From positions 1-43,028 of the IMG/VR virus record IMGVR_UViG_3300034012_002969: 43,028 bases of DNA. One strand, 5' to 3'. Positions 22,720 to 32,340 of this stretch are shown piece by piece; the stretch's first letter is position 1; every line of letters starts with the position of its first letter. The stretch comes from a virus. The translations under genes were made by a program, and so were the position numbers. Below the pieces are notes generated by a model. The model saw nothing but the letters and a program-made list of their open reading frames with translations, had not been told where the DNA came from and did no database searches.

Positions 22720-24975
22720 ATGGCATCCTTTGGCGAGGGCTTCGCGAAGGCGTTCACCGACACCTACGGGGCGATGACGCGCGGGCGCTATTTTGGCGCG
22801 CTCGCCACCAAGATGGAGCGCGAGCAGGCCGGCGAGGACGCACACACGGAAGCGACGACCGCCGCAGCAGCGAAGTATGGAATCACGCTGCCCAGCCCGC
22901 AGGCACCCCAGCCTGCCGCGCCGGCACCAGTCCAGGCCGCACCCGTCGAGGGTGGCAGTGATGTCGCGGCCCAGCCGCGCCCCGCTGGCCCTCCGCAGGG
23001 TGGTGGCGCGCTCACGCAGCCAGCGGCTGATGTGCCGCCTCAGCAGTTCCGCCCCAGTAATGTGCAGGCGCCCGTTGCAGCGCCCAGCCAGCCGCGCCCG
23101 CAGCTTGGGGCTTCCGAGCCCGCGCCCGCCCCTGCGCCCGCCCCTGCGCCCGCCCCTGCGCCCGCCCCTGCGCCCGCCAGCGCCGTCGCCCGTGCCATGG
23201 CGCAGCCTGCCCCCGCTCCTGCCCCTGTGACGCCGCAGGGTAGCGCCGTCGCGTCCGCGCTCCAGCCGGAGGAACAGCCTCCGGCCAGTGGTGTATCGTC
23301 CCCGTTCGACGAGCGCACGACGCAGCGCATTTTCGAGACGGTCCAGAAGAACGACGAACCCCTCACCACGATGGTGATGGCTGGCGCGCTGGAGACGGGC
23401 GGCACCATCCAGCGTGAGGAATTGCCCGCGCTGCGCGCGCAGGTGCCGGGGCTGGTGCAGGCGGTGCAGGAATCGCGTGGCGCTGACAAGACGGGTCCAT
23501 TCACCAAGGAGGACTGGAACGGGTTCCTCAAGTCGGTGACTCTCAGCGCGTTGAAGAATCTGCCGTCCGACAAGGCGATGCAGGTGTTCGCCACGATTGA
23601 TAAGGTGCGAATCACCGGGCTTCAGCAGGGCGTCGCGTTCGCCGTGGCGTCGGCCCAGCAGGGGGATATGGAGGGGGCGGCTCGCCTGCTCAACGGCGCC
23701 GTGTCCTTCCTGCCGGATGGCACCAAGCGACACTTCCGCGCCACCAAGGGCGGGCTGGAGATGGAGGTCCAGGGAGAGGATGGTAAGACTGTCTCGAAGA
23801 CCCCCATCGCGCAGGCGGACGTGGAGAAGTTCGGCCTGATGCTGCTCGACCCGATGGCGACGGTGAAACACTATCTCGACAGGGACGTGCAAGCGGAGCG
23901 TGTGCGCCACAACAAAGCCTCGGAGGCGACAGCGGCTGGGAATCTGGCGCTGCGGGGTGAAGAACTGAAGTTCAACCAGAAGCTGCGTGCAGACCAGCAG
24001 ACCGCGCGCCAGGAGGACCGGGAGCGGCAGGCGGCGCTTGATCGCAACGACGCGCAAGGCGTGAAGCTGATGCGCGACTACATCGCTGCCAGCCGCGCGC
24101 TCGCGGACGCGCAGGAGAATGGCGCCAGCCCCGGCACGATGCGGAATCTGCAAGCGCGTCTACTCGCTACGCAGGATGCCTACGAAAACCACCTGCCGTC
24201 CATGTCGGGTAGCGGTGCAGCCAAGGCGGCGTCTGCGGCCGAGGGGGCGCGGACCACGGATGAACGACTCGATCTGGCACGTGGGCGCCAGCGGGACCGC
24301 CAGGACGCGGCGCTGCGGGGCCAGCGGCTGACACCGGATCAGTGGAAGGCGTGGGATGCGGCGCAGGCAGAGTTCTCCGCGCCCGACCCCAACACGAAGA
24401 AGATCGCGCCCGAGGTGGAGTGGGCGTCCGCTCAGTCGCTGGCGGTGTTCCAGAAGAATCCGAATATCCCGCCGCGCGTCATCATGGAGACGCTGGCTCG
24501 CTACCGGAAGGCGTTCCCCAACAAGCCGCTGGAGGACAATCCGGATGGTCTGATGGACACCCGCACCGGGGTTCGCCTGACGATTCCCGGCGTAGTGCCG
24601 GAGACGGCGCGCCCCAAGCCGGGGGCGCCGATGGAGGGCAACGTGGTTCAACCGCCGCCGGCAGCGCCTGCTGCCCGCACGCCGGGCGCGCTCCAGTCGA
24701 TGGTGGGTGCGTCCCGCCCTCGTGAGGCAGCGACTCCATCCACGCCGGCCCCGCTGGACCGTGTGTCCGCTGCTGCGGCGCGTGCCGAAGCGCGTATGCC
24801 GCCGCCTGACGTGTCGGCCCTGGCTGCGCAGCGCGCAACGACACGTATGGAATCCGCCAAGCAGGCTTTGTTGCTGAGTGGCGGGCGGATCAACGCCGCG
24901 CGCATCAAGGAAGTGGCGGACAGTTTCGGTGTGGACGCCGATGCGCTCGCCCGCGCAGTCCAGCCGCGTCGGTAG
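22720..24975 (+). CDS. Putative internal virion protein, Pro/Ala-rich N-terminal half, 751 aa
   Basis: Starts MASFGEGFAKAFTDTYGAMT with an amphipathic helical head (to about 50). A long Pro/Ala/Gln-rich low-complexity stretch follows (about 60-195), including an exact Ala-Pro repeat, then a helical body (200-620). Position between a small ejection-type protein and the giant protein matches the gp14-gp15-gp16 series of T7-like virions, where the three form a trans-envelope channel. No catalytic motif seen. AAGGA is about 7 bases upstream of the ATG. Homology to T7 gp15 is not claimed, only a comparable place and build. Confidence 0.65.
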   Translation: MASFGEGFAKAFTDTYGAMTRGRYFGALATKMEREQAGEDAHTEATTAAAAKYGITLPSPQAPQPAAPAPVQAAPVEGGSDVAAQPRPAGPPQGGGALTQPAADVPPQQFRPSNVQAPVAAPSQPRPQLGASEPAPAPAPAPAPAPAPAPAPASAVARAMAQPAPAPAPVTPQGSAVASALQPEEQPPASGVSSPFDERTTQRIFETVQKNDEPLTTMVMAGALETGGTIQREELPALRAQVPGLVQAVQESRGADKTGPFTKEDWNGFLKSVTLSALKNLPSDKAMQVFATIDKVRITGLQQGVAFAVASAQQGDMEGAARLLNGAVSFLPDGTKRHFRATKGGLEMEVQGEDGKTVSKTPIAQADVEKFGLMLLDPMATVKHYLDRDVQAERVRHNKASEATAAGNLALRGEELKFNQKLRADQQTARQEDRERQAALDRNDAQGVKLMRDYIAASRALADAQENGASPGTMRNLQARLLATQDAYENHLPSMSGSGAAKAASAAEGARTTDERLDLARGRQRDRQDAALRGQRLTPDQWKAWDAAQAEFSAPDPNTKKIAPEVEWASAQSLAVFQKNPNIPPRVIMETLARYRKAFPNKPLEDNPDGLMDTRTGVRLTIPGVVPETARPKPGAPMEGNVVQPPPAAPAARTPGALQSMVGASRPREAATPSTPAPLDRVSAAAARAEARMPPPDVSALAAQRATTRMESAKQALLLSGGRINAARIKEVADSFGVDADALARAVQPRR
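23120..23178 (+). repeat. 12-bp tandem repeat coding Ala-Pro-Ala-Pro
   Basis: Five head-to-tail copies of CCTGCGCCCGCC (first copy one base different) encode an uninterrupted (Ala-Pro) run. The copies are identical in DNA as well as protein, so this array is recent and liable to slip in length between isolates. (Ala-Pro) runs make stiff extended linkers. Confidence 0.85.
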
Positions 24976-24984
24976 GAGCCTACC

Positions 24985-27900
24985 ATGGTCGAGACAGTCA
25001 TTCCGGATACCGACCTCACGGACTCGGTAGCCGACGAGAATCGGCCTGCGCCGCAACGTGAGATTCCGGAGGGGGCCATTCGGCGTATCGTGGGGAGCAG
25101 CCCCACGGTCATCCCCGACATTCCGGACCCGCAGCCGCGCTCCTACATGGGCGACGCCGCCCGAGGGTTCGCCTCCAGCGCGGTCGGCACAGCGGGGGCG
25201 GCTGCCGGCTTCCTCGAATACATCATGGGCTCCGGCGGTGCGCTGACCAAGGCGCGGGAAGGACTCGGCGCCACGAGTGAATCGCTGGCGCAGGGCATGT
25301 CGCCGCAGATGCAAACCGCGCTTGGGCGCGAGTTCACCACGATGCCGCAGTGGCTCGGCGGCGACTCCGACAAGTCCGCGTGGGAATCGTTCGGCAGCTT
25401 CCTCGGTTCCGCGTCGGCGCAGGCCGTCGCCATGTCCGGATCGCTGGTGTCCGCCGTGCCTGCCATCATCGCGGGTGCGATGTCCGGACCTTACGCCGTG
25501 CCTGCTGCCGTCGTGGTGGCTGCCGCAACGGGCGGTGCCCTGGGCGGCGGCTCGGTGTGGAACGATGTCGCCACCGAGTTTCAGAAGCTGGATGAATCGG
25601 ATCGGATGAAGAATCCGGTCTACGCGGGCCTGCGCCAACAGGGACTCGACCCGGCAACCGCCATCGACCGCACGGTGCGTGAGGTGGCCTCCGGCTATGT
25701 GAACGCCGCGACTGCTGTATCCGGTGCAGTGAACGCTGCGACCGGCCCGTTCCTGGGGAGGCTGGGTGCTGGCACGCTGAAGGGAGGCGTGCTGCGCGGT
25801 GCGGGCACCGGATTCGTCACCGAGGGCAGCGAGGAACTGATCGACGAAGGCTCCACGCAGCACTTCTCCGCCAGCGCCATCGAGCGCCTGACGGGCAAGC
25901 CCTACGACTTCAAGGAGGTGGCCGAGGGCGCGGTGCGTGGCCTGATCGGCGGCGGTGTGACCGGCGCGGGGATGGGTGCTCTTGGTGGCATGCTGTCGCG
26001 CGAGCCCCCTGCCCCCGGTGCCGTCGATCCCGCGATTCTGGCAGCGACTCAGAATCAAACGCCCAGCACCGGCACCGCGTCCCAGCCCAGCGCCCCGGTG
26101 GACCCCGCCGTTGCCGCCGCGATGGCTGCGAAGAACGCCACGACGCCGCCTGCGGGGGGCATGCCCGGCACGCCGGGTAGCACGCCCGGTAGTGAAGAAC
26201 CCGTGCCTCCAGGCTACGGCCCGGCGCCCCGGCCCATCATTGCCATGGGGCCGACTTCCTTCGAACCGGACCTCCTGTCTGGCCAGATGGGGCCGCGCAG
26301 TGCCGGCACCGACGCCATGGGCCAGAACATCCTCCCGCTGGAGGGCATCGGCGTCCCCCAGCCGGGGGCACCTGCCGCCGCGCCGTCGTTCATGGACTTC
26401 GTGATGGGGACCGTCGCGGACCCGCGCCAGGAGGCCATGCCGTTCGGCGCCGCGATCCCTGGAACCCCCCGCCCGCAGACCGTGGCGCCCGGCCAGGAGA
26501 GCGCGGCGCTGCCCGGCGAACTGCCAGGGCAAGGGGGTGGCCCCAACACTGCACAGCCGGCTCCTGCGGCGCCCGTAGCGCCCGTGACTGAGACGCCTGC
26601 GGTGAAGCCGAAGCGTGCCAAGAAGGTGAAGGCGGCTGCGCCCGCCCCTGCGGGGTCCACGGCTGTGGTGCCCACATCCACACCCCCTGAGTCCGTATCG
26701 GGCGCTATCACCACTGCGGAGCCCGTGCTGGAGGGTGAGGTCATCCCGCCCGAGGAAAACCATTCGAAGCTGAAGGCTGGCGGCAAGAAGCGGTTGGCCG
26801 ACGCCGTGAAGCAGGCGCGCGATTCACTGCGGGCCAGCACCAAGCTGGCCAGCGAGAAAATCTTTGGCCCGGAGACGGAGCAGGCATCCGACGCCACGGT
26901 ATCAGCCCTGGTCGATGAAATCCTGGCCGACGCGCAGCGGGAAATTGGCGACCCGAGCACGAAGTCCGTGCGTGAACTGATGACGCTGATTCTGGAACGC
27001 AGCACGAGTCGGCTGCGGACCACGCTGGAAGAACGAGCCGCCGCGACCACGAACGCAGAAACGGAGTTCGAAGGCGCGCAGGACACCACTGCCCGGCGCG
27101 TAAGCAACAAGAACATCATGGATGCCGCAGCCGGCGACCGCGACGCCACGGAGAAGGTGCGGGAGCACATCAAGCGAATCGACAAGAAGCGCCTACCGGA
27201 GTTCTACAAGCGTGTGTCCAAGGCGCTTGCCAGCACCGACACGGTGAATCTGGACTGGTTCAATGAACTGAAGGCGGCAGTGGAGGGCGCATCGCGTGGC
27301 GGCAGCGCCGAGCAACGTGCCAAGCGTGCCGAGGTGGTGGAGGCTACGCGCGAGAATCTGGCTCAGCAGGCCGAAGCGGACAAGGCCCGCTTTGCGGAAC
27401 AGCGTGCCGCCGTCATGGCTGGCGTAGGCGCCTCCACACCTTCCTATACCGGCACGAAGACCAAGGAGCAGATCGTCGAGCGATTCCGTGAGGCGCAGCG
27501 CGCCCTCGCTCGTGCCCTTGGCGTCGAGCCCACCCAGGTGCCGGCGAAGGCAACCAAGGAAGCACGGGAGCAGTTTGATCAGCGGCAGGCTAAGCGCCTG
27601 CGCACGTTGATGCTGCAAAAGATCGGCGCCTCGAAGGACGACGATTCCGACGCAGCACAGTTGGTCGAGTTCTTCTCGGATGCGGCAGAGTTGGATGCCA
27701 ACGCCCCGCGCGAAATGCTTCAGAACTATCAGTCCTCCGAGGCGCTGGCGCGTGCCGGCGACGTAAAGTCGGCGCGTTCGCTTCTGGCAGAGACGGCAGC
27801 CATCGAGAACAGTTCCACCGGAACCGCCCTGGCACCGGGCGAAGAAGGTATCACCGAGGAACGCGATCCCGAGGCGCTGAACCAGACTCGAATCGACGAT

Positions 27901-30900
27901 GTGAATCTGAGTGGCGCCGATCTGGGCCGGCTCGCTGCCACAGCGCGTGAGCGCGCGGCGCTGGCGGATACCCGCCAAGAGCGCGACACGGGCCGGCTGC
28001 TGGGTGGGGAAGATCGCGGCCAGACCCGCGAGGTGGAGGACACCGCCGAGGCGAGCGAAGATGACATTGCTGCCTATATCCAGGCACGCAAAGCCGCTGC
28101 CGCGATGCGTCCCAAGGGCACGACCAACAAGCTGGAGGCCGAGGCCCCCACCGTCACCCGTCGCGGCATGCTGCGCGGGATCGGCGCCGCCGTGCTGTCC
28201 TGGGCCATGGGCGACAAGGTGTTCGCCCAGACCGTTCCCGCCGCCGAGCGCGCCCGTGCCGGCGATTTCGCGGGTGCCCTGGACGCCATCGCCAAGCACT
28301 CCAGCGATCCCGCCCTGCGTGCCGTTGCCGGGCGGCTGTCCAAGCTGATGGACGGGATTCCCCTCTACATCATCGAATACGGCAAGGACTACGCCGGCAC
28401 GGACAAGCGGAATTTCCCCGCTGCGCTGAATCACGCGCTGGGCGTGACGCGAATCGAGAAGAACGGCGGGGTGACGGTTTGGCTTCGCTTCGATCCGAAG
28501 GGGCAGAAGGCGCACGGCGTCAACGACTACACCATTGTCCATGAGGCGTTGCATGCCGCGCTGATGTCGCGCTGGGGCGAGTTCCACGGCAACCTGTCTC
28601 TCAACGGCACCGTGGTGGGGAGCCTGAAGGGCAAGCCCGGCGTCGAGCACATCCAGACGCTTGCGAATCTCTACAAAGCCTACCAGTCCTATGTGTTCCG
28701 CGATGCCAAGGTCCGCGCCGAGGTTAAGGCCCACATCTCGCTCGATTCTCCCTACAAGGACTTCGACGAGTTCATTGCCTACGCGGTTAGCAACAAGGTG
28801 TTTCAGGACTGGATGAAGCGCCAGTCGCTGAATCAGCCGAGCATGTGGCAGCGATTCGTCAACGCCATCGCTGGCCTGTTCGGTTTCAAGGGCGATCAGC
28901 GCACGATGCTGGAAACTGCGCTGGACGCGACCAACGCACTGCTGGATGTGGCTGCCTCGGTGCCGGTTCAGAACACCAGCCCGCGTGCCACCCCGACAGA
29001 CTTTGCTCCTGGGCGATTCGATAAGAAGGAAGAATCCGACGGTGTGGTGGAGAAGCTGGAAGCAACTACCAGCGCCTTCTCCCGGCTGGTCCGCGACGCG
29101 ATTCCAGTCAGTGCCAGCGAATCCTTCCTCGCGAACATCGGGGGCGGGCTGAAGAAGGTCGGACTCGGCTTCTCGACGAATCGGCAGATCGAGTTCTGGC
29201 TGGATAAGCATTTCCCGCGCACCGAGTTCATGGACTGGGTGGCGCCGGATGCGAAGGGCGACCTGATGCACGTCGCAGTGGTGGCGAACAACCAGCGCCG
29301 CCAGATCGCAGAAAACCGGATGGAGAAGTTCATCCCCGCCGTGCGCCAGTTGGTGAGCCTGGGAGCGCAGGCAGAGCGCGAGGTGAGCGAACTGCTGGTT
29401 GACGCCTCCATGGCGCAGGTGCATCCGGACGCCCCCTTGGACGCCAAGGGGCGGAACAAGCACGCCATGGGCGCAGGGCAGAAGAAGGCGCAGATGCGCG
29501 AGCGCCACGCTGCGCTGAAGGCCCGCTACGACCGGCTGTCCAAGGAGCAGCGCGCCGCCTACCATGAGGTGCTGAAGGCGGCAGCCGAAGGGCACCGCGA
29601 TGCCGTCCATTCGATCATCGCCAACGTGGTGAATCGCTGGTGGCTGGAGCAGGTAAACAACTTCCAGCGCGATCCCGACAAGAATCCGCTGCCGGGCGGC
29701 GTGAAGACTCCTGCCGAAGCCGCCAAGATGGTGGCAGCGATGCGGGAGAACGCACTGGCCGACAAGATGACCGACGAGCAGAAGGAGATGATGGGCGACG
29801 ACTGGTTCGGCCAGATCGTCAAGGCGCACCATCGGGCCAAGCTGGACGGGCCGTATGTGCCCTTTCAGCGCCAGGGCGATTTCGTGGTGTCGTGGAAGGA
29901 GCCGGCGGAGGAATACGTCACGTTCGGCACCGAAGCCGAGGCTGAGCGATTCGCTCAGAGCACGCCTTATGACGTGATGGGCACGGAGCAGAAGCACTAC
30001 GACAAGGATGGGAACGAGATTCTGGAGCCCGACCTTGGAATCATGCTCGACCTCCAGGGCGAGGCCAAGGACGCCTTGGGCGAGCGTGCCGATCCGAAAG
30101 ACCTCCAGCGCGCCATGCGCAAGGCTGAGCGCGAGGCGCTGAAGAAGACCCGCGAGCGCGACACCGCCAAGACGGAGTGGGTGGTGCGCCAGCAGGTGAA
30201 CGGCATGGCCATGTTCGAGACGGAGGCCGAGGCCAACCGTGCCGCACGTGAACTGCGGGAATCGGGCCGCAAGGTCAGCGACGTGGACCTGCGCAAGACT
30301 GCCGCCCAGCGCCGGTCGGACCTTCAGGATGCGGATTTCGCCAAGATCATCGATTCGATCCAGAGCGATAAGAATCTGTCCGACGAACAGAAGAACAACG
30401 CCATCGATTCGCTACAGGAAGCGATGTTGATGACGCTGCCCAATCGGGCGCTCAACTCGACGCTGATTCGTCGCCGCAATGTGCTGGGGCCGAGCCGCGA
30501 AGTGCGGCGTGTCATGTCCAACTACGGGCTGGCGGTGGCGAACTTCACTGCCGGCATCGACACCGGACTGACGATCACCTCGGCGCTGTCCGAGATGAAC
30601 CGCATCACGAACGAAGGGCGCCGGGACGACAGCGCGGACGATGGCACCACGCTGGCTCGCCGCCGAGGGCTGCGCGAGATGGAGATGCGGCTGCTGGAGC
30701 CGCCACTGGACAACCCTGGCACGGCTGGGCGGTGGGTGCGGCGCGTGCAGACGGCGGCGTTCATCCACTTCCTTGCCAGCCCGTCCTATACCGCGATCCA
30801 GATGACGCAGCCCTGGATGCTGACGATGCCGATCCTGGCAGCCCGCTACGGCGCGATGGCTGGGCCTTCGGCGCTTGCCAAGGCGACCCGCGATATCGGC

Positions 30901-32340
30901 CTGGGCGCGATCCTGAAGGCTGGGGTGAAGGACACTGGCACCGCCCTGCGGACGTTCATCACCGGCGCTGCCGGGGAGCAGCAGCCGATTCTTGAGCAAG
31001 TGCGGAATCGCCTCGCCAAGCTGCCGGATGGGGCGGGCCTCACGAAGATGCTCGACTCCCTGGCAGCGGAAGGTCTGGTAGATGGTGACGCCGGGCTGGA
31101 ACTGATGCGTGCCGAAGTCACCGCGGACTCCGCAGGGTGGCGCAAGCTGGGCCAGCTTGAAGCCCTGACCCGCGCCATGCCGGCAGCGGTCGAAGTGGTG
31201 AACCGCACGTCCAGTGCCGTCGCAGCCTATCGCCTGGAGATGAAGAAGTCGGGGGACCACGACAAGGCGGTCCTGGCGGCACGTGAGGTGGTGGACCAGT
31301 CGCAGGCGGACTACTCGTCCTCGAACACCGCGCGCTACATGGACAGCCGGCGCTACCCCTGGATCGCGCCGATGATGACCTTCCGCAAGTATGCGCAGGC
31401 GGTCTATGCCCTGCTGGCGCGGCAGGTGTATCAGTCCTTCAAGGGCGCCACCAAGGAGGAACGCCGGCAGGCCATGAAGACTCTGGCCTACGTCATGGGT
31501 GCCCACGTGGCGGTCGCTGGCACCCTCGGGCTGCCGACCGAAGCCATCACGGTGGTGCTGGGCACGGTGGCCCTGGCGATGGGTGCAGACGAGCCCTGGG
31601 ACTGGGAGAAGGAGGTGCGGCAGGGGTTGGCCGAGGCGTTCGGTAAGGAGGCTGGGGAAGTGCTGGCGCGCGGACTCCCACGTCTTGCTGGAGTCGACCT
31701 CCACTCTCGCATGGGCCTCAACGCCCTGCTGTTCGTGAACGACCTGCGCGACTACGAAAAGCGGTCCACGATGGAGTATGCCGGCAGCCTCGTGTTCGGT
31801 GCGCCGGGGTCTATGCTCACCGCTTGGCTGGGTGCGCCGGCACAGCTTGCCAACGGCGACCTGGGGCGTGCTGGCGAGGCGCTGGTGCCCAAGGGCGCCC
31901 GCGATGTGATGAAGGCCATGCGCTTCAGCGAGGAAGGCGTCACGACGAAGAAAGGCGAACGAATCGACGAAGGGCGGGAGTTCTCCGTGGGCGACGCTAT
32001 CATTCAGGGCCTGGGGTTCACCCCGGCCTGGACGGCGGAGGTTTACGAGCGCCGGCAGGCGGTGCAGGGGGCGAATCGCCGCCTCACCACTGAGCGGTCG
32101 GAAATGATCCGGAACTGGCGTCAGGCCAAGCCGGAGCAGCGCGCAGAGCAGTGGCAGCGGGTCATGGAGTGGAACCAGAAACTGCCGGCGGAACTGCGGT
32201 CGGAACGAATCACGCGCGCCAACCTGATCGCCTCGGAACAGGAGGCCAAGCGCCGTGCCAAGGCCAGCGGCGGTGCCGACTATCTACCCAAGGGCCGCGA
32301 GGCGCTGCGCAAGGAAGGCGACTTCGCAAACGTGAGGTGA
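24985..32340 (+). CDS. Giant polyvalent-type virion protein with zincin (HEALH) domain, 2451 aa
   Basis: Likely co-injected with the DNA. Order: residues 1-340 helical with a hydrophobic Gly/Ala zone at about 145-190 (VPAIIAGAMSGPYAVPAAVV); 340-590 Pro/Ala-rich linker; 590-1050 charged coiled coil; 1058-1082 a Tat-like segment with RRGMLRGIGAAVLSWAMG then VFA-Q; 1085-1330 a predicted metallopeptidase with HEALH at 1186-1190; 1350-2450 helical, including RRYPWIAPMMTFRKYAQAVY (about 2118-2137), akin to the PLxRFG-type region of large phage polyvalent proteins. Size and place match giant internal proteins such as T7 gp16, but no lysozyme domain is seen; the peptidase may replace it. The start has GGAG 8 bases upstream. 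Confidence 0.85.
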   Translation: MVETVIPDTDLTDSVADENRPAPQREIPEGAIRRIVGSSPTVIPDIPDPQPRSYMGDAARGFASSAVGTAGAAAGFLEYIMGSGGALTKAREGLGATSESLAQGMSPQMQTALGREFTTMPQWLGGDSDKSAWESFGSFLGSASAQAVAMSGSLVSAVPAIIAGAMSGPYAVPAAVVVAAATGGALGGGSVWNDVATEFQKLDESDRMKNPVYAGLRQQGLDPATAIDRTVREVASGYVNAATAVSGAVNAATGPFLGRLGAGTLKGGVLRGAGTGFVTEGSEELIDEGSTQHFSASAIERLTGKPYDFKEVAEGAVRGLIGGGVTGAGMGALGGMLSREPPAPGAVDPAILAATQNQTPSTGTASQPSAPVDPAVAAAMAAKNATTPPAGGMPGTPGSTPGSEEPVPPGYGPAPRPIIAMGPTSFEPDLLSGQMGPRSAGTDAMGQNILPLEGIGVPQPGAPAAAPSFMDFVMGTVADPRQEAMPFGAAIPGTPRPQTVAPGQESAALPGELPGQGGGPNTAQPAPAAPVAPVTETPAVKPKRAKKVKAAAPAPAGSTAVVPTSTPPESVSGAITTAEPVLEGEVIPPEENHSKLKAGGKKRLADAVKQARDSLRASTKLASEKIFGPETEQASDATVSALVDEILADAQREIGDPSTKSVRELMTLILERSTSRLRTTLEERAAATTNAETEFEGAQDTTARRVSNKNIMDAAAGDRDATEKVREHIKRIDKKRLPEFYKRVSKALASTDTVNLDWFNELKAAVEGASRGGSAEQRAKRAEVVEATRENLAQQAEADKARFAEQRAAVMAGVGASTPSYTGTKTKEQIVERFREAQRALARALGVEPTQVPAKATKEAREQFDQRQAKRLRTLMLQKIGASKDDDSDAAQLVEFFSDAAELDANAPREMLQNYQSSEALARAGDVKSARSLLAETAAIENSSTGTALAPGEEGITEERDPEALNQTRIDDVNLSGADLGRLAATARERAALADTRQERDTGRLLGGEDRGQTREVEDTAEASEDDIAAYIQARKAAAAMRPKGTTNKLEAEAPTVTRRGMLRGIGAAVLSWAMGDKVFAQTVPAAERARAGDFAGALDAIAKHSSDPALRAVAGRLSKLMDGIPLYIIEYGKDYAGTDKRNFPAALNHALGVTRIEKNGGVTVWLRFDPKGQKAHGVNDYTIVHEALHAALMSRWGEFHGNLSLNGTVVGSLKGKPGVEHIQTLANLYKAYQSYVFRDAKVRAEVKAHISLDSPYKDFDEFIAYAVSNKVFQDWMKRQSLNQPSMWQRFVNAIAGLFGFKGDQRTMLETALDATNALLDVAASVPVQNTSPRATPTDFAPGRFDKKEESDGVVEKLEATTSAFSRLVRDAIPVSASESFLANIGGGLKKVGLGFSTNRQIEFWLDKHFPRTEFMDWVAPDAKGDLMHVAVVANNQRRQIAENRMEKFIPAVRQLVSLGAQAEREVSELLVDASMAQVHPDAPLDAKGRNKHAMGAGQKKAQMRERHAALKARYDRLSKEQRAAYHEVLKAAAEGHRDAVHSIIANVVNRWWLEQVNNFQRDPDKNPLPGGVKTPAEAAKMVAAMRENALADKMTDEQKEMMGDDWFGQIVKAHHRAKLDGPYVPFQRQGDFVVSWKEPAEEYVTFGTEAEAERFAQSTPYDVMGTEQKHYDKDGNEILEPDLGIMLDLQGEAKDALGERADPKDLQRAMRKAEREALKKTRERDTAKTEWVVRQQVNGMAMFETEAEANRAARELRESGRKVSDVDLRKTAAQRRSDLQDADFAKIIDSIQSDKNLSDEQKNNAIDSLQEAMLMTLPNRALNSTLIRRRNVLGPSREVRRVMSNYGLAVANFTAGIDTGLTITSALSEMNRITNEGRRDDSADDGTTLARRRGLREMEMRLLEPPLDNPGTAGRWVRRVQTAAFIHFLASPSYTAIQMTQPWMLTMPILAARYGAMAGPSALAKATRDIGLGAILKAGVKDTGTALRTFITGAAGEQQPILEQVRNRLAKLPDGAGLTKMLDSLAAEGLVDGDAGLELMRAEVTADSAGWRKLGQLEALTRAMPAAVEVVNRTSSAVAAYRLEMKKSGDHDKAVLAAREVVDQSQADYSSSNTARYMDSRRYPWIAPMMTFRKYAQAVYALLARQVYQSFKGATKEERRQAMKTLAYVMGAHVAVAGTLGLPTEAITVVLGTVALAMGADEPWDWEKEVRQGLAEAFGKEAGEVLARGLPRLAGVDLHSRMGLNALLFVNDLRDYEKRSTMEYAGSLVFGAPGSMLTAWLGAPAQLANGDLGRAGEALVPKGARDVMKAMRFSEEGVTTKKGERIDEGREFSVGDAIIQGLGFTPAWTAEVYERRQAVQGANRRLTTERSEMIRNWRQAKPEQRAEQWQRVMEWNQKLPAELRSERITRANLIASEQEAKRRAKASGGADYLPKGREALRKEGDFANVR

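Follow-up and report, generated by a model that had tools for sequence, protein, structure and literature searches.

Sequence homology places residues ~1093-1325 of a giant phage protein, encoded in the window analyzed here (the whole of IMG/VR record IMGVR_UViG_3300034012_002969, a 43,028-base virus record on a single contig), in the zincin-like metallopeptidase (MPTase) domain known from polyvalent proteins, as a new lineage of a known family. The stretch preceding this domain, which resembles a Tat signal, most likely owes the resemblance to chance, being a hydrophobic part of the linker and not a functional signal. Taken jointly, the identity of the domain and of the protein that carries it and the rejection of Tat appear to us probable.

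Genomic context and domain architecture of the giant protein

The giant ORF lies toward the end of the block of late structural genes, and its PHROG matches include the DarB-like antirestriction family phrog_10089 (Table 1). LPD39, which we take from its name to be a polyvalent-protein domain, and the PLxRFG domain together place the giant among the polyvalent proteins. The genes on its 5' side encode a head-tail adaptor/portal-like protein (phrog_332), a virion structural protein (phrog_437), an internal virion protein (phrog_511), an acyltransferase (phrog_4470) and a further virion structural protein (phrog_8003). Serratia phage Parlo presents a similar gene order (internal virion protein, acyltransferase, structural proteins, giant), and the neighboring internal virion protein is ~30% identical to its counterpart in Burkholderia phages JC1, DC1 and BcepIL02. 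The giant is hence found in the setting that characterizes ejected virion proteins, among late genes and beside internal virion proteins, and by analogy with its homologs in phiKMV, N4 and PhiM1 it is probably an internal (ejection) protein that is packaged in the head and injected. Directly 5' of the giant, at 22720-24975, a 751-aa protein matched no PHROG or Pfam family, and no relatives of it were found in IMG/VR.

Table 1. Coordinates of the giant protein, its domains and the segments discussed in the text.
Feature	Residues	Position in window	Strand	Basis or remarks
Giant, putative internal virion / polyvalent protein	1-2451	24985..32340	+	ORF, 2451 aa; AGGAG 5' of ATG
Low-confidence linker holding the Tat-like stretch	1041-1093	28105..28263	+	pLDDT ~30-45 over most of it
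Tat-like stretch, TRRGMLRGIGAAVLSWAMGDKVFA-Q	1058-1082	28156..28230	+	Sequence
Zincin-like metallopeptidase (MPTase) domain	~1093-1325	28261..28959	+	Homology, AF2 model, Foldseek against viral library
HEALH, two predicted metal ligands and general base	1186-1190	28540..28554	+	HExxH in every domain-bearing relative
E1262, predicted third metal ligand, in D-E-F-I-A-Y motif	1262	28768..28770	+	Invariant column in two alignments; helix in model
LPD39 (large polyvalent protein associated domain 39)	1454-1550	29344..29634	+	PF18858, E=7.5e-9, 36 bits (cut-off 27)
PLxRFG domain	1739-2435	30199..32289	+	NF032893, E=2.1e-105

Identification of the zincin domain

HEALH is the sole HExxH motif of the giant, with 0.02 instances expected from its composition. 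A tblastn search against 50,697 phage records yielded matches in 105 of them, mostly in phiKMV-type internal virion proteins, and homologs of the domain were identified in phiKMV gp37, N4-type virion RNA polymerases (vRNAPs), PhiM1 gp48, DarB-like giants and metagenomic phages. We aligned the giant with eight of these proteins (phiKMV gp37, those of Vibrio phage 1.205.O, a Limnohabitans autographivirus, Parlo, CP2 and Rhizobium phage TM3_14A, and two N4-like vRNAPs), and the only invariant residues were the H, E and H of the motif, one Glu, which in the giant lies 76 residues past the first His of HEALH, and one Gly. In another alignment, which took in eleven relatives from metagenomes, H, E, H and E were again invariant. 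Outside the giant, the domain was detected in 23 proteins, every one of which retains HExxH, and the Glu of the E1262 column is retained wherever it could be aligned. A chance occurrence of HExxH was ruled out by this conservation in homologs. Searching PDB chains with a profile of the domain returned a 1337-residue internal virion protein of phiKMV size (9sfn, E=3.5e-68), residues 2155-2379 of N4 vRNAP (E=3.8e-20) and PhiM1 gp48 (E=5.9e-7).

The predicted structure points to the same family. An AF2 model built from 12 sequences (mean pLDDT 66.9, with much of the zincin domain at 70-92) presents, in model numbering, two helices (66-76 and 80-92) and three strands (97-102, 124-128 and 134-140), followed by the HExxH helix and by a further helix predicted to bear E1262, an order of elements that agrees with the published MPTase definition (PMC5512222). 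Foldseek matched the model to internal core proteins, vRNAPs and polyvalent proteins in a viral library; against the PDB it returned no match at E<=0.001, with N4 vRNAP appearing only at E=0.76.

Homology, the invariant HExxH and Glu, the predicted fold and the relatives among solved structures all bear out the zincin domain that the initial annotation had proposed. The interval given there, 28141-28790, located the motifs correctly, with E1262 falling just inside its end, but the folded domain is larger (Table 1). The accompanying suggestion of a captured secreted metallopeptidase is unsupported, since the family of the domain is one of phage ejection proteins, the remaining members of which, themselves giant phage proteins, carry no signal in front of the domain.

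Comparison with known members of the family

Among the domains of polyvalent proteins, the zincin is reportedly the most frequent (PMC5512222). Like the MPTase domain described by Iyer et al. 2017 (PMC5512222), the domain identified here has an HExxH helix, a Glu on a later helix and three strands, and occupies the middle of a giant phage protein that is encoded among late genes and carries LPD domains; 12 clades of the domain have been published. The giant adds the Tat-like stretch before the domain. The C1 region of N4 vRNAP (residues 2124-2375; PMC12633501; PDB 9pnr, 11gp) is the same domain by profile, keeps HExxH, a motif that the N4 authors also describe in C1 (PMC12633501), and is likewise part of an ejected giant, whereas the protein studied here lacks a recognized RNA polymerase domain and carries LPD39 and PLxRFG instead. 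In phiKMV gp37 and the internal virion protein of PDB entry 9sfn, blastp and profile matches identify the same domain, with HEAVH as its motif, in a virion ejection protein whose gene likewise closes the series of internal virion protein genes, but this protein has 1337 aa, no Tat-like stretch and an annotation as an endolysin-domain protein. The tetrameric ejection protein gp48 of PhiM1 (PDB 8vb2, PMC11440229) aligns its HEAAH and a downstream Glu to the zincin profile.

Records of phiKMV-type gp37 (L002) carry the labels "endolysin domain" or "lytic exotransglycosylase", and Asp268-Asp528 of PhiM1 gp48, called endolysin/exotransglycosidase-like by its authors (PMC11440229), overlaps the zincin domain with its HExxH. 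In phiKMV gp37 Pfam detected neither a lysozyme nor a transglycosylase domain, and the endolysin/transglycosylase annotation of both proteins may be misplaced. The domain ties together proteins labeled endolysin, lytic exotransglycosylase, vRNAP and DarB, a link of use in choosing which protein to test, phiKMV gp37 or N4 vRNAP for instance, and the present analysis adds one further zincin lineage and two alignments that fix the invariant H, E, H and E.

The zincin is an exchangeable module that several PLxRFG giants lack. Several giants that share the C-terminal part (L016, L018, L028, L030, L032, L033 and L035) have no HExxH, some of these loci containing only a partial gene. In the nearest relatives the zincin is preceded by an InPase domain, recognized as PF18823 in the giant of Rhizobium phage TM3_14A (L007:4422-11345) and by its motif in L019, L020, L021 and L024; in the giant studied here, which has no InPase, the linker with the Tat-like stretch occupies its place. 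Two giants present a second HExxH outside the zincin domain, HEAFH at residue 2557 in Parlo (L005) and HEMGH at residue 1265 in CP2 (L006), each possibly marking a further zincin.

Proposed role of the zincin domain

For this domain we infer zinc binding, peptidase activity, a substrate, a timing and a location as follows. The giant would be packaged in the head of a podovirus-like phage and injected along with the DNA, with H1186, E1187, H1190 and E1262 together predicted to bind zinc. The N4 giant is ejected last, its N-terminal domain holding the membrane while the remainder works in the cytoplasm (PMC12633501); by analogy, the C-terminal part of the giant would reach the host cytoplasm after ejection, and the zincin is expected there. 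It may then cut the giant at a flexible linker, which would release the portion with LPD39 and PLxRFG from the N-terminal portion held at the envelope. Linker cutting is the most economical role, and one already suggested for the domain family (PMC5512222), and processing of a polyprotein after injection, as the initial annotation envisaged, is possible and has likewise been proposed for MPTases (PMC5512222). As the exact role of the zincin, self-cleavage is a plausible assignment that we hold tentatively. N4 vRNAP enters the virion without processing (PMC5512222), and the recombinant protein studied in PMC12633501 was of full length, so constitutive self-cleavage is not a rule of the family, and cutting, if any, would be delayed until infection or aimed at other proteins.

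Alternatively, the zincin may cut a host protein, acting as an effector against the host rather than on the giant itself. Such a role is one of the options proposed for the MPTase family (PMC5512222) and would be in keeping with a swappable module that PLxRFG giants can lack, but the very wide spread of the domain over unrelated hosts suggests a general role, and we consider a host effector somewhat unlikely. Our literature search found no phage substrate for a polyvalent-protein zincin. A non-catalytic domain serving as a structural element of virion assembly is a distinctly less probable solution: the N4 region containing the domain is required for encapsidation while the protein is unprocessed (PMC5512222), but the full conservation of H, E, H and E among aligned domains with an overall identity below 30% is hard to explain without metal chemistry.

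Analysis of the Tat-like stretch

The sequence preceding the domain opens with T1058-R1059-R1060 (28156-28164), the start of T-R-R-G-M-L-R, continues with a hydrophobic run and a Lys after it, and closes with VFA, which ends at A1081 (28225-28227) and is followed by Q1082 at 28228. The initial annotation, which had numbered the twin Arg, VFA-Q and HEALH correctly and pointed out the more than 1050 residues in front, called it a textbook Tat signal. TRRGML does fit the TatP pattern RR.[FGAVML][LITMVF], a pattern found somewhere in 83% of shuffled copies of the giant, but "textbook" overstates a resemblance that is borderline. The curated models TIGR01409 and PF10518 gave no match to the stretch at E up to 10 (of four control Tat signal peptides from P. 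aeruginosa, the former matched three and the latter two). On a scoring matrix derived from 26 Tat signal peptides of P. aeruginosa, taken from PMC6085387, the stretch scored 14.4, among the lowest of these references (10.3-28.6, leave-one-out), and this score was reached by 23 of 3000 shuffles of the giant (~1%), with a looser Tat rule satisfied by 4.35% of shuffles. The uncharged run is 12 residues long, compared to 12-22 in the references. Counting against a chance reading, the stretch is nevertheless the best-scoring Tat-like site among the giants inspected and directly precedes the zincin domain, which would be rare by pure accident.

In the AF2 model the stretch itself has a pLDDT near 30, and the possibility that it is part of the zincin fold was discarded, as the model places it in the low-confidence linker. 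Residues 1058-1082 could also act as a membrane-contacting helix or a hinge, tethering the zincin at the inner membrane or easing passage through the channel. The segment is basic and hydrophobic, with a helix predicted at low confidence, but it ranks only 14th in hydrophobicity among the 18-mers of the giant, has a low hydrophobic moment (0.18-0.30) and is not conserved, leaving this a doubtful explanation.

A working internal Tat signal would have TatABC move the folded zincin to the periplasm, there to cut peptidoglycan peptides or envelope proteins, either after injection and a cleavage near residue 1040 or with upstream hydrophobic segments in the inner membrane. The elements of such a signal (TRRGML, a moderately hydrophobic run, the c-region Lys and VFA-Q) are correctly ordered, the score lies inside the range of known signals, and the site is predicted to lie at the start of the zincin domain in an unfolded linker. 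Internal Tat signals have been documented in dual Sec/Tat membrane proteins, where Sec inserts the earlier helices (PMC5449189); only such special cases offer a precedent for exporting a segment that lies behind more than 1050 residues. Tat signals ordinarily have free N-termini (PMC5449189), whereas the stretch, in spite of its RR, hydrophobic run and A-x-A-like site, starts at residue 1058 rather than at the N-terminus of a separately initiated protein, and combines a short h-run with silent curated models and a lack of conservation. A nested gene starting from the internal ATG at 28105 was ruled out, no Shine-Dalgarno sequence preceding that codon. All relatives carry the same domain without the stretch: the twin Arg is absent from them, none presenting a twin Arg with a hydrophobic run within 190 residues before HExxH, whereas HExxH is present in every one with the domain. 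The homologs, the curated models and the cytoplasmic location of N4 C-terminal parts in the published model all argue against the Tat export after injection put forward in the initial annotation, and we regard a functional signal as very improbable. If true, it would represent a phage exploiting host export from the inside; the evidence is not in favor of this.

Even over the C-terminal part, identity to the nearest relatives amounts to no more than ~35%, so this phage lineage could conceivably have gained a Tat signal recently and on its own. We nonetheless judge a lineage-specific internal signal unlikely, and there is only a slim chance that this phage lineage added one before the zincin and has the folded, metal-loaded peptidase re-exported, perhaps after self-cleavage. 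No literature linking Tat signals with phage virion proteins was found.

Single-protein scans of IMG/VR for close relatives, with the Tat and zincin, middle and C-terminal regions of the giant and two neighboring genes, returned only fragments (L014 and L036). These are shorter contigs from one sample (3300044911), with the Tat-like site outside both, and are identical to the record over the matched proteins. A second alignment-based scan brought up no relatives beyond those known from the first. Residues 1041-1090 (28105-28254) have a GC3 of 0.94, compared to ~0.76-0.84 elsewhere in the gene, a value that would fit a foreign insert in a segment too short to give it weight. The runner-up among the Tat look-alikes of the giants inspected, with a score of 11.1, is SRRFLAGHLAAATVISGSMGLPFAAS, at residue 1913 in the C-terminal part of the L029 giant, which indicates that such look-alikes arise elsewhere too.
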